Origin: Halodesulfovibrio spirochaetisodalis
GTDB taxonomy: Bacteria > Desulfobacterota > Desulfovibrionia > Desulfovibrionales > Desulfovibrionaceae
Length of the DNA: 64,000 nucleotides
Direction of reading: 5' to 3'
NCBI RefSeq assembly: GCF_001672295.1
Contig: NZ_JXMS01000010.1
Location: 1-64,000, forward strand
How positions within the stretch are numbered: the first letter of the stretch is position 1; each line of letters begins with the position of its first letter. Below are positions 49,278-55,035 of the stretch, one piece after another. The position numbers and the translations under genes were made by a program. A model generated the notes under the pieces. It worked only from the letters and a program-made list of their open reading frames with translations, did no database searches and was not told the DNA's origin.

Positions 49278-49344
49278 GTGTCCGGTAGGGGCGGACACAT
49301 ATCGCGTTCAGATTCAACACGCCGTTACCGGGGGGCAACGGTAA
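49278..49344 (+). other. Structured 5' leader with alternative pairings
   Basis: A GTGTCCG/CGGACAC hairpin (49278-49298), then CCGTT (49322-49326)/AACGG (49337-49341), or alternatively TTACCG (49325-49330)/CGGTAA (49339-49344). The two second pairings exclude each other and end 11-14 nt before the ATG, over the ribosome binding site region. It does not match a riboswitch class I recognise. Confidence 0.45.
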
Positions 49345-49355
49345 GAGAGAAGACT

Positions 49356-49586
49356 ATGTACACAGTGGATCACCTTCAGGCTCAGCATCTTGAGACAATG
49401 CAGCGCCTTTCCAAGGATCAGGAAAAAAGTGCTCGAAAATTACAGCACCAGCTTGATCAGATCAATGAAGCATTCGGCGAATTAAACGAGGCACTCATGG
49501 CAAGCTTTACTTCTGCTTCTCCGGCAAACGTAAAAGCTCCTCGTATCGGTGGCTTTTTCTCACAGGTTAAAGGCTTGTTTCTGTAG
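49356..49586 (+). CDS. Small coiled-coil protein, hypothetical
   Basis: A 76-residue protein with a helical, coiled-coil-like stretch (HLETMQRLSKDQEKSARKLQ, about 11-30; then INEAFGELNEALMAS) and a C-terminal hydrophobic amphipathic end (IGGFFSQVKGLFL). I do not recognise the family. A strong promoter, a structured leader and a terminator indicate a real, independently regulated gene. ATG 49356 follows GAGAG; the upstream part of the frame is leader RNA. Confidence 0.65.
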   Translation: MYTVDHLQAQHLETMQRLSKDQEKSARKLQHQLDQINEAFGELNEALMASFTSASPANVKAPRIGGFFSQVKGLFL

Positions 49587-49647
49587 TCTTCCTGCTGGCT
49601 ATCAGCCACTTTCTATCAACATTTTCCCCATCAAATTTTCTAGAAAA

Positions 49648-49687
49648 AACATCCTGCCCGAACTTGCTCGGACAGGATGTTTTTTCT
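49648..49687 (+). terminator. Terminator after the small gene
   Basis: ACATCCTGCCCG pairs (one mismatch) with CGGACAGGATGT and is followed by TTTTTTC, 60 bp past the stop. Confidence 0.82.
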
Positions 49688-49727
49688 GTTTTTGTACGAC
49701 TGCTCGCTTTCAAATGACTGCTGGCAG

Positions 49728-50309
49728 TTAGCGGGATCGGAAATCATCTCTATCAAGCGTATACAAATCTCTGGCTTCCGGAGCCGGAGGTCTGCCGCTT
49801 ACCTTATCCGGACTGAGTACCATGACACGGGCAATCACTTTTCGGCCTATCAAACGGTCATACACATCAACCTTGTAGCCCGGTGCGACAGGGTGACCTG
49901 TACTTTTGATGTAATCTAGATATCTGCGATATTCCAGACTGGTATTCCCTGTATCAAGTTGATAGGAACCGCTACGCCAACCTGTCCCCCATCTTGAGGC
50001 AGTTGAGCCTTTTAATGGGCGGACAAAGTATCTGTTACCGGAAACATTCATTGTCTGGGATAAAATATACGATTCGCCTTGTCCAAACACTGTTGTGTTA
50101 AATGTCTGATACGGGAATGCCCCGCTTTCCCATGTTTGCGGTTCTACATTAACACTGACATTGCCTACCTTCTCATATCCTTCAGGCAACTTGAACTTGG
50201 AAGTACCATAGACAGTGTACATCCGTGTTTCAGGATTCAATCTGGAACCACAACCTACAACAATTACTGCAGTAACGAGCAGCAGCAATATTTTGCCCAG
50301 TTTAACCAT
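49728..50309 (-). CDS. Lipoprotein of a local three-member family (paralogue A)
   Basis: A 193-residue predicted lipoprotein (lipobox VVGC, Cys20). The body contains the block VYGTSKFKLPEGY, FPYQTFNTTVFGQG, SRWGTGWRSGSYQL, SLEYRRYLDYI, VDVYD and VIARVMVLSP, which aligns with the next two genes on the same strand. The likely start is ATG 50309 with GAGGTG upstream; ATG 50321 is less supported. Not a family I know. Probably envelope-exposed; the repeated W/G/Y motifs suggest a compact beta-rich domain. Confidence 0.75.
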   Translation of the reverse strand: MVKLGKILLLLVTAVIVVGCGSRLNPETRMYTVYGTSKFKLPEGYEKVGNVSVNVEPQTWESGAFPYQTFNTTVFGQGESYILSQTMNVSGNRYFVRPLKGSTASRWGTGWRSGSYQLDTGNTSLEYRRYLDYIKSTGHPVAPGYKVDVYDRLIGRKVIARVMVLSPDKVSGRPPAPEARDLYTLDRDDFRSR

Positions 50310-50390
50310 TACGCACCTCATCTCTTTTTATGACCTGAATACCGGGTCGAAAAATTGTCATTATTAATACAGCTTGTACCGTTCCCAGCG

Positions 50391-51026
50391 TCACTCAACT
50401 GTTCTGTATGTTCTGACTGGATATAATTCGGGAAATTGCGGCACAAGCACACTTGCACCTGTTGCAGGACGTAACTCAAGAACACGAATAATCACGCGAC
50501 CGGAAAAACGTTTTGCATATACATTTATAGCGAACGAGTCCGAAAGCTCTTCATCTTGTTGCTGTAAAAAATTGAAATATTGAGAATACTCAGAATTAGC
50601 TGTATCTGCAGGAACTGTAAATGTTGTGAGCTGCCATGTGGTGCCCCAACGCTCAACATCCTCATTGACTAGTGGTTCAAAATAATATTTATCACTTCCG
50701 AGACGTGTCCACTGGGTAAAATAATACGTACCGTTATACGCATACACTGTTGTAGATAAATATTGCGGAACGGTCAGATCCGGTATGGGTACAGATGGCT
50801 GCCATGCAACCTCAACTGTGCCAAGGTTAGAATATGTTGATGGAATATCTATAAAGACATGACCATAAACTACCTTGCGCACATCCTCTGCTTTTTGACC
50901 GATAGCAACTTCTTCTCCGAAGGTGCCCGGGTATATGGTAGACATAACATTGCTTGAACAACCTGCCGCAATCAGGCTGAACAGCCCCACAATAAGCCGC
51001 ACCGCTATTGTATAACTTTTGTCCAC
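50391..51026 (-). CDS. Lipoprotein of a local three-member family (paralogue B)
   Basis: A 211-residue predicted lipoprotein (Cys23 in IAAGC). It is the most diverged copy: VYGHVFIDIPSTYSNLG, a second block VPQYLSTTVYAYNG, ERWGTTWQLTTFTV, NSEYSQYFNFL, INVYAKRFSGRVIIRVLELRP. It has an extra 25-residue segment between the lipobox and the VYG motif and has lost the GQG motif. It starts with GTG 51026, with GGGGGAAG upstream. No function is known. Confidence 0.72.
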   Translation of the reverse strand: MDKSYTIAVRLIVGLFSLIAAGCSSNVMSTIYPGTFGEEVAIGQKAEDVRKVVYGHVFIDIPSTYSNLGTVEVAWQPSVPIPDLTVPQYLSTTVYAYNGTYYFTQWTRLGSDKYYFEPLVNEDVERWGTTWQLTTFTVPADTANSEYSQYFNFLQQQDEELSDSFAINVYAKRFSGRVIIRVLELRPATGASVLVPQFPELYPVRTYRTVE

Positions 51027-51048
51027 AATTACTTCCCCCTAAAAAAAG

Positions 51049-51080
51049 AATGCCCTCGAAGTATACTCCGAGGGCATTTT
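51049..51080 (-). terminator. Terminator after paralogue C
   Basis: ATGCCCTCG and its partner CGAGGGCAT (51058-51080 region) pair with a 9-nt loop, and the minus strand continues with CTTTTTTT. It also has a T-run on the plus side. It separates paralogue C from paralogue B. Confidence 0.8.
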
Positions 51081-51103
51081 TTACTTATATGATTACCTGA
51101 CAG

Positions 51104-51697
51104 CTAAGATCTGCCGCCACCGAAACCGTTTCCGTAGTCGTAGTACTGGTATAAATCGTTGAATGAAGGCATTGCCGCCACGCCACCAACGTCAGTCGGG
51201 GTAAGGCTGATAACACGTGCAACTACATTCGGTGTAACCTTCTGGTCGTACATGGCAACTCTGTATAATGGAGCCAGCTGACCGCCTTTTTCGCGGATGC
51301 AGGAGAAGTATCGTGCATACTCTTTATCAGTAGTTCCTGATGAAAGGGAGTAATTTCCTTTTCTCCAGCCGCTTCCCCACATCTCTGCTGTGGAGCCTTG
51401 AAGGGCTTTAACATGATAGTATGGAGTTTTGAAAATCATCTTCTGTACAAGAACGTAGCACTGTCCCTGTCCATAAATTTCTGTGTCCCACCATTGGTAC
51501 GGGTACAGACCTTCAATCGGGATATTAATGGTATCAGGCAATACACCAACGGTTGTGGTGCCAACTAATGAATACCCAACAGGTACAACAGTCTTTGCAC
51601 TACCGTACACTCGCATCGGCTCACCAGCCTGAGTTTGAGCGCAGCCTGCAAGCACCATAAGGGCGATCACAACAAACAAGCAACGTGTTAATTTCAT
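51104..51697 (-). CDS. Lipoprotein of a local three-member family (paralogue C)
   Basis: A 197-residue predicted lipoprotein (lipobox VLAGC, Cys19). It shares VYGSAKTVVPVGYSLVGTTTV, YPYQWWDTEIYGQG, EMWGSGWRKGNYSL, DKEYARYFSCI, VAMYD and VVARVISLTP with paralogue A, and ends with a Gly/Tyr-rich tail (DYGNGFGGG). ATG 51697 has a GAGGA site; the frame continues upstream, but without signal-peptide support. Family unknown. Confidence 0.75.
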   Translation of the reverse strand: MKLTRCLFVVIALMVLAGCAQTQAGEPMRVYGSAKTVVPVGYSLVGTTTVGVLPDTINIPIEGLYPYQWWDTEIYGQGQCYVLVQKMIFKTPYYHVKALQGSTAEMWGSGWRKGNYSLSSGTTDKEYARYFSCIREKGGQLAPLYRVAMYDQKVTPNVVARVISLTPTDVGGVAAMPSFNDLYQYYDYGNGFGGGRS

Positions 51698-52179
51698 AGC
51701 ATTCCTCACTAGAGTTATGTGAAAATACTGCTTAACAAGAATAATCATTATAATTCTTTGCCAAGGGACTCTGCTCTATTCAGCATTTCAACAATAGCGG
51801 ATACCAAATCGATTGCCATAATATTTTCAAATAACATCATTCTTTATAACAACTTACTACACTTCTGGCTTGTTCATTTTTTCATACGCACAAAGGAATA
51901 CTTTTTTACCGTCCGACATGTTTGATTGTTTTTATATCCACTGTTGTTGAATACGTTAATCTGATTATATCGCTGTCACAACAGTCTTTTTTTTTATCTA
52001 CGCATGATGATTTCAATACTCTTTTGCACTTTACAATTCTTTTTCGATCCTCATTGCGCAATAGTACAGTATCTTTCATGCTAAATTTCAAAATGTAACG
52101 TACTTTTTCCTTGTTAAACTGATATGTTCACTACCAATATCAAACCAAACTTGGTCAACAGCGTGACATCATCAAAAAA
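51698..52179. other. Intergenic region, no supported gene
   Basis: About 480 bp of AT-rich DNA. A short Cys-rich frame at 51906-52091 on the minus strand has no ribosome site or known domain. Presumably contains the promoter of paralogue C. Confidence 0.4.
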
Positions 52180-52224
52180 TAAAAAACGCGGTATACTCTC
52201 ATAGAAATCTGAGAATATACCGCG
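52180..52224 (-). terminator. Terminator of the 52.3-53.3 kb pair
   Basis: CGCGGTATA/TATACCGCG with an inner TCTCA/TGAGA stem at about 52187-52224; the minus strand continues with TTTTTTATTTTTTG. It lies about 90 bp past the FlgN-like gene. Confidence 0.85.
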
Positions 52225-52315
52225 TACCAAACGCATTATTCGGACACTCGGTCTGAACTATATACTTTAGGTCATCAGCAATATGCAGCAAAGCGTATGC
52301 AATAGCACACAGCCG

Positions 52316-52669
52316 CTACCCTTGCTTGTCCACATAATGGGATATTGAAGCTTCCGGGATAGTAACCGACTTCTGGTACCCGTTATAACCTGATGACTTT
52401 TGTTTGCTTGCTAAAAGTTGAGACTTCAATGAGGCGTGCAGTTTTTTCAATTCATCTGTTAATAACAGTTGAACATTCTGCATTTTCAGCAATTTTTGCC
52501 GAAGTTCACTCTCAATATCACCTGTGCGAAGAGCCCACGCCTCTGAGATAAGACGTTCACGCTCCACAGCAGCCTCGTCAGCAACATCCATGTCACCATT
52601 TTTTAAGGCTTCCAGTTCTTGCTCTCCAATCCGGAGGGCTTCGTCAAGCAATGTAAGGCTGTTTGCCAT
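52316..52669 (-). CDS. Small helical protein, FlgN/FliT-like
   Basis: A 117-residue, almost all-helical protein (LLDEALRIGEQELEALKNGD, then ADEAAVERERLISEAW) in the size range and pattern of flagellar export chaperones FlgN and FliT. The similarity is by pattern only. It lies 5 bp downstream of the next gene on the same strand, sharing a terminator. Flagellar role is inferred. Confidence 0.5.
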   Translation of the reverse strand: MANSLTLLDEALRIGEQELEALKNGDMDVADEAAVERERLISEAWALRTGDIESELRQKLLKMQNVQLLLTDELKKLHASLKSQLLASKQKSSGYNGYQKSVTIPEASISHYVDKQG

Positions 52670-53703: not shown

Positions 53704-55035
53704 CTATCCCACAGGCAGATCCACCTCCGGCACCTGATACCGCACATCTGACCGAATATTATGCATAGCGGTCAGCACCCAGACAGGGCCTACGCGCCCC
53801 ACAAACATAATAAACATAATGATGCCCTTACCTGCTGTAGTGAGCTTTGCGGTAAACCCTACACTCAACCCTACTGTCGTAAACGCAGAAACAACTTCAA
53901 AGAAGATCTCTACCAACTGCCCGCGCACTTCAAACTGTGACAAGTTTTTGCCTTCTGTTAATGTCAGCGCAAACGTTGCTAAAAAAATCAGCAGAACAGA
54001 GCCGGACACCAGCATCAAAACCTTATGAATGGTCTTTTGCCCAAGCGCCCTGCCGTTCATTACTACCTGCTCACGCCCTCTGAATTGTGCCGCCAGAAAA
54101 GCCAAAAAACCACGAAACGTCGTCACTTTTATACCGCCGGCACATGATCCGGGTGCTCCGCCGACAAACATCAAAAACAACAAAATCAGCAGAGACATGT
54201 TTGTCATTTCTTCAAGGCGAATCGTACTGAAACCGGTAGTACGCGCAGATACGGAGAAAAAGAGCGATGTAAGAAATGAAGTTGAGATTTCCTCCCCGGA
54301 TGCAACTACGATCAGGTTTACCCCGTACAAGGCAACGGCGCCCCCTAAAACGAGCCAGAAGGATGTCTCAAGCACTATTCGCACAGAGTATCTCATACGC
54401 TTACGCCTGTAACCACGAAGCCACAAAAAGCCTTCATCCAGAACAGAAAATCCCAGAGCTCCCGCCAAAATAAGTCCCATAAAAATACAAGTAATACCTG
54501 TGTCTGTCCTAAATTGCATAAGGCTGTCCGGGAAAAGGGATATTCCGGCATTACAAAAAGCTGACACAGCATGGAACACTGCTGTAAAGGGTGAAAATCG
54601 ACCATTGCCCAGCACATAGAGCAGCACCGCACCAACGGTTTCAAGCCCCAGTACGATAACCAGAAGACGCTGCAAAAACATTCCAAGATGGAACGTATTG
54701 TCGTGCAGTAGCGCAGCTCCCACGGCAAGCCTGTCCGTGAGAGATACCTTTTTTCTCCATAAATAAAAGGCGAGCGTGGAGTATGTCATTACCCCCAGAC
54801 CGCCTAACTGCATCAGACAAAGAATAATCCAATGCCCCTCGCGGGAAAATCCTGTTTCCCACGAAACAACGCCCAGTCCGGTAACACACAGAGCTGACGT
54901 TGCCGTGAACATGGCATCAATCCACGACAATTTACCATCAGCCGATGTTTCATGCAGCAACACCGTTCCGATAAGAATGGTCATAACAAAGACCAAAAGA
55001 GGAAGCACAAAAGGCAGATAGCTTCGTTTAGCCAT
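53704..55035 (-). CDS. TrkH/KtrB family potassium uptake channel
   Basis: A 443-residue membrane protein of the KtrB/TrkH/HKT superfamily with four M1-P-M2 repeats. The pore loops carry the selectivity Gly residues: SALCVTGLGV, SAFCNAGIS, SARTTGFST and SAFTTVGLS. The length fits KtrB better than the longer TrkH. KtrB needs a cytoplasmic RCK regulator (KtrA/TrkA), but none is adjacent. A GGGAG lies close to the ATG. Confidence 0.92.
   Translation of the reverse strand: MAKRSYLPFVLPLLVFVMTILIGTVLLHETSADGKLSWIDAMFTATSALCVTGLGVVSWETGFSREGHWIILCLMQLGGLGVMTYSTLAFYLWRKKVSLTDRLAVGAALLHDNTFHLGMFLQRLLVIVLGLETVGAVLLYVLGNGRFSPFTAVFHAVSAFCNAGISLFPDSLMQFRTDTGITCIFMGLILAGALGFSVLDEGFLWLRGYRRKRMRYSVRIVLETSFWLVLGGAVALYGVNLIVVASGEEISTSFLTSLFFSVSARTTGFSTIRLEEMTNMSLLILLFLMFVGGAPGSCAGGIKVTTFRGFLAFLAAQFRGREQVVMNGRALGQKTIHKVLMLVSGSVLLIFLATFALTLTEGKNLSQFEVRGQLVEIFFEVVSAFTTVGLSVGFTAKLTTAGKGIIMFIMFVGRVGPVWVLTAMHNIRSDVRYQVPEVDLPVG

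Follow-up and report, generated by a model that had tools for sequence, protein, structure and literature searches.

Small alpha/beta proteins of the Mog1/PsbP-like class, in which we count LpqN and Tsi3, include bacterial members that can be membrane-anchored adaptors. In E. coli, the destination of a lipoprotein is governed by the residue (Asp) at position +2 after its lipobox Cys. Sulfate reducers have molybdenum/tungsten (Mo/W) regulator operons of the TunR/TupR type. Here, we compare with these systems three consecutive lipoprotein genes, A, B, and C, found in a 64,000-nucleotide stretch (the window) of the marine sulfate-reducing bacterium Halodesulfovibrio spirochaetisodalis. We show that A, B, and C are one shared family of tandem paralogous lipoproteins, and that the trio represents old paralogues of a small lineage-restricted family whose order is conserved. 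The analysis also adds three features: C is preceded by a 182-nt leader, a terminator separates C from B, and the family's gene in Desulfomicrobium lies just behind a Mo/W-type regulator operon at 13 of 15 loci. The three genes are as follows.

49728-50321, minus strand: lipoprotein gene A, 197 amino acids (aa; 193 from the second ATG), lipobox VVGC, residue +2 Gly
50391-51026, minus strand: lipoprotein gene B, GTG start, 211 aa, lipobox AAGC, residue +2 Ser
51104-51697, minus strand: lipoprotein gene C, 197 aa, lipobox LAGC, residue +2 Ala

The original prediction, made from the window alone, had described three successive minus-strand lipoprotein genes sharing an ordered set of motifs. Our analysis bears this out: the open reading frames (ORFs) lie at these coordinates, and all three carry a lipobox. 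The Cys residues named there also agree with ours, at Cys23 in B, Cys19 in C, and Cys20 in A when counted from the second ATG (Cys24 from the first). A longer in-frame ORF starting at 51748 is possible for C, and B has ~17 additional residues behind its lipobox Cys. The three proteins align along their length (identity 41% for A-C and 25% for A-B), and the invariant columns include VYG, Y49, W111-G112, W115, E130-Y131, Y134, R165-V166, and L186-Y187. WG..W is present in 28 of 29 rows of relatives, and so is E[YF]..Y. The FGQG/YGQG motif, said to be lost from B, turned out not to be a family feature; it occurs in only 2 of the 29 rows, namely A and C of the window itself, and the orthologues show FGDG, FAKG, YGMG, and others. 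Searching the whole genome with protein A (E<=0.001), we recovered only A itself, C (E 3.6e-39), and B (E 9.7e-16). These E values mean a similarity far beyond chance, and the claim of tandem paralogy thus holds. A three-protein profile turned up no fourth full copy in the genome, its best other match having an E of 0.12 over 35 positions.

Searching libraries for a name, we found no match above cut-off for the three window proteins in Pfam or NCBIfam, and none at all in PADLOC. The matches below cut-off were weak: in Pfam (E<=10) C to DUF6726 (E 0.018), in NCBIfam (E<=10) C to YgdI/YgdR (E 0.24), and in PHROGs (E<=1) three, the best at E 0.077. For 21 relatives, NCBIfam returned six families at E 0.05-0.19 without pattern. 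A tblastn search with A for phage or plasmid relatives gave nothing at E<=0.1. In literature searches on Halodesulfovibrio lipoproteins, on TunR, and on Desulfomicrobium with lipoprotein, radical SAM, or tungsten, no title or opening abstract described the family. The family had been called unfamiliar from the letters alone, and a clear match to a known domain, which would have spoken against that, was not seen above cut-off in these libraries. It is a modest new protein family, with nothing strange about it.

We next consider its distribution. Among 348 genomes of the class, a profile of 29 relatives detected the family in 26; in many genomes the best 8-11 first-look candidates were scored, and weak copies may be missed. 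The carriers comprise all 10 genomes of the window's genus, 15 genomes of g46, a genus from another family of the same order that we take as Desulfomicrobium, and one weak case (G339, E 5e-8). In a phylum sample of 395 genomes, with the same limit on scored candidates, profile A3 matched only the window genome, and a contig scan returned one locus, L078. In total, 45 members were found. The window's genus splits into six genomes with a C-B-A trio and four with a single copy, and GC at the single-copy loci is 0.58-0.62 versus 0.48 in the window. Three of the six trio genomes also carry seven scattered paralogues (3, 2, and 2), all without a lipobox. In all six, the C-B-A order stands at the same place, with the pnp side at one end and the same two small ORFs, of 117 and 200 aa, at the other; around it lie pnp, rpsO, truB, and small ORFs that match no family above cut-off. 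A tree was built from 44 of the 45 rows, leaving out the weak relative in G339 (L058) and with several rows trimmed N-terminally and L043 at both ends. In it, a branch with starred support sets apart each of the following: A, B, C, the scattered paralogues without a lipobox, the single copies of the high-GC genomes, and the copies from Desulfomicrobium. The A, B, and C clades hold six orthologues each. Since A, B, and C form separate clades across six genomes, the duplications are older than these species.

Some surroundings of these loci are recorded as side observations. In G339, two adjacent, mutually similar small genes (L094:8430-9703), one of them the weak family relative, lie beside an NMT1-like-domain gene. 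At a single-copy high-GC locus (L012:186-1283), a gene for a PnrA-like substrate-binding protein is near the lipoprotein gene. Near another high-GC single copy (L090:12996-15999), HlyD, BTLCP protease, and ABC transporter genes resemble a type I secretion set. In the window, a TrkH gene (53704-55035, minus strand) adjoins the two small ORFs; this gene was also found at the corresponding place in L078, and not in L095-L098.

We also checked the noncoding DNA of the trio, where three features stand out.

51700..51881, minus strand: conserved leader upstream of C, 182 nt, 90% mean nucleotide identity across 6 genomes
51049..51078, minus strand: hairpin resembling an intrinsic terminator, between C and B, with a stem of 13 pairs, a loop of 4 nt, and a T run
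49644..49680, minus strand: hairpin and T run after A, likely terminator, read from the sequence and absent from the consensus scan

Each trio genome has the leader a single time, upstream of C, which makes 6 of 10 genomes of the genus; four further short matches came at E 0.01-0.09. Its alignment has 2 gap columns of 182, and its 90% identity is about that of truB and pnp (89%), whereas the DNA just upstream of it reaches only 59%. We looked for signs of a structured RNA, with little result: Rfam gave nothing on this stretch at E<=1 (two weak matches fall elsewhere), no stable fold was found (z 0.13), and only 1 of 51 predicted pairs showed double-sided change. A possible small ORF lies within the leader; it is 23 aa long in the window and measures 23-34 aa in the other trio genomes. 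Of 23 codons, 1, 5, and 7 are variable at positions 1, 2, and 3, respectively; by this pattern, the ORF appears not clearly coding. A scan found no promoter-like site on the leader's strand. The hairpin between C and B, with its T run, is kept in all six genomes with a stem of 10-13 pairs, and in G057 one stem pair is altered on both sides. The hairpin after A is likely also a terminator, on weaker evidence than the C-B hairpin. By inference, C would be the principal product, with B and A made in lower amount.

The models of A and B show one common small alpha/beta fold. The solved structures near these models include several Mog1/PsbP-like proteins that recur for both, all with Z <8; a fold missing from such structure-match lists is no evidence against that fold. 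Going by the models, the mature domain would sit nearest the Mog1/PsbP-like class. Sequence searches do not reach this class: profiles A1, A2, and A3 gave 3, 0, and 3 chance-level matches against solved structures (E<=10), the Pfam DcrB and other curated Mog1/PsbP-like models found none of the three window proteins (E<=10), and the curated models found none of the 21 relatives at E<=1. DcrB matches in 3 of 118 genomes and RseB-C matches in 5 of 118 were too few to build comparison profiles.

Our best explanation, which we hold tentatively, is that these old, lineage-restricted paralogues are anchored by lipid and may act in the periplasm as tethered adaptor or binding proteins. By pattern match, a lipobox is present in 18 of 18 A/B/C rows, and none of the 36 lipobox-bearing rows has Asp at +2. 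The signal peptide would be cleaved at the lipobox Cys and the protein lipidated. Because the +2 residue is not Asp, the proteins would, by the E. coli rule, be sorted to the outer membrane, facing the periplasm. There, the mature domain, predicted to be a small alpha/beta fold nearest the Mog1/PsbP-like class, may act in each copy as a tethered adaptor or binding domain for a partner specific to that copy. C would be the most abundant, expressed from its own leader-controlled unit, while B and A would come from terminator readthrough or from a weak promoter of their own.

The neighbourhoods in related genomes raised the question of whether the family is instead the envelope side of a molybdate/tungstate economy, with the window trio a duplicated and re-wired version of a Desulfomicrobium operon gene. 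At 13 of 15 Desulfomicrobium lipoprotein loci, the gene immediately upstream, in the same orientation, is a TunR-like gene (5 loci) or a radical SAM gene (8 loci). Of the eight loci with the radical SAM gene, five have a whole TunR-like gene further upstream and two have part of one, and in one the stretch ends first. The TunR-like regulator carries an integrase-type part and Mop/TOBE domains in the two proteins scanned. The TunR-like gene still adjoins the lipoprotein gene where the other flanks differ (L083, L088). As a side observation, the radical SAM gene lies between the TunR-like and lipoprotein genes in 5 of the 8 loci L082-L089, and its best NCBIfam matches are HxsC and MoaA, far below cut-off. 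The 15 loci come, however, from one genus and are not independent, and neither gene is seen at L047 or L049, whose available flanks are short. A homologue of the regulator exists in 8 of the 10 genomes of the window's genus, never on the contig of the family's genes. In five of five genomes looked at, it adjoins a modA-like gene (its product presumably ModA; Pfam label SBP_bac_11), and an inverted repeat, GTCACG-N14-CGTGAC, is exact between the two in all five (L108:7798-7823; L109-L112). This repeat is a candidate operator; at the trio it was not found, the best match in 49500-52400 having 3 mismatches, and we rejected an operator of the TunR-like regulator there. Moreover, the high-GC genome tested has the PnrA-like gene as a neighbour. 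The neighbourhood link to Mo/W is thus real in Desulfomicrobium and unproven in the window's genus, and we consider this explanation unlikely. Less likely again is its bolder form, in which a Desulfovibrionales-only family would be an unrecognised envelope arm of molybdate/tungstate use, with a single copy behind a Mo/W-type regulator in Desulfomicrobium and three specialised paralogues in Halodesulfovibrio, their dosage set by the 182-nt leader (a new cis-acting element or a small-protein gene) and a built-in terminator.

The original prediction had itself suggested a surface or envelope role in which variants are selected, for example in adhesion or in the handling of metal or sulfide; A, B, and C would then be diversified surface adhesins or antigens. 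That A, B, and C are lipoproteins fits this, and A and B are the fastest-changing of eight genes compared by mean nucleotide identity across six genomes (A 65%, B 64%, and C 78%, against 89% for truB and pnp and 94% for rpsO). This faster change is explained equally well by weaker constraint. The ratio of nonsynonymous to synonymous change (dN/dS) was 0.071-0.115 for A (4 ortholog pairs with finite dS), 0.091-0.228 for B (9 pairs), and 0.062-0.159 for C (15 pairs), the ratios being rough as many of these pairs have dS >1.5. These are 28 of 45 A/B/C pairs; the remaining 17 were synonymously saturated and left unused. The neighbours (117 aa ORF, 200 aa ORF, and truB) gave 0.044-0.162, and a small ORF at 49278-49586 gave 0.042-0.342. 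With single clades and a gene order kept in six genomes, the claim of selection for variants is not supported: on average rates, A, B, and C are under purifying and not diversifying selection. No adhesin domain was matched in Pfam or NCBIfam. Among the invariant columns of A/B/C, there is no His, and the lipobox Cys is the sole Cys; those of the 29-row set contain neither His nor Cys. We found no evidence for adhesion, metal, or sulfide handling in the trio itself, and regard this proposal as very improbable. We give marginally less weight still to an immunity array, in which Tsi3-like lipoproteins would neutralise periplasmic effectors of competitors. No match to VipB, the sheath protein of the type VI secretion system (T6SS), was found in the window genome, and 2 of 10 genomes of the genus have one (G132 and G142); the trio stands at one place beside truB, rpsO, and pnp in all six genomes, with or without VipB, and no immunity family was matched above cut-off in Pfam or NCBIfam. 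Tethered binding or adaptor proteins remain our preferred explanation.

In summary, a 45-member lipoprotein family without a Pfam or NCBIfam match gains a distribution, clades, and a first testable link, to the Mo/W-type regulator operons of Desulfomicrobium. The gain is one of annotation; nothing known is overturned, and the family is ordinary in kind. Two leads are useful: the regulator linkage and the leader, which is more constrained than the proteins encoded behind it.

Compared with known systems, the trio differs from Tsi3, a T6SS immunity lipoprotein, in that no linked secretion system or effector was found, VipB being unmatched in the window genome and the small neighbouring ORFs having no family match above cut-off. 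The C-terminal domain of RseB/MucB covers about half of the model, and the A/B/C family has neither the second domain nor a Pfam match. As in the TunR/TupR-type Mo/W regulator operons of sulfate reducers, the Desulfomicrobium lipoprotein gene follows such a regulator at those 13 of 15 loci; unlike them, the window trio lies outside any such operon, unlinked to the regulator and without its putative operator. The closest likeness may be to the Mog1/PsbP-like proteins (DcrB, LpqN, PsbP, MOG1, and Tsi3), which consist of a small single alpha/beta domain, as predicted by the models of A and B, and which are often lipoproteins in bacteria.
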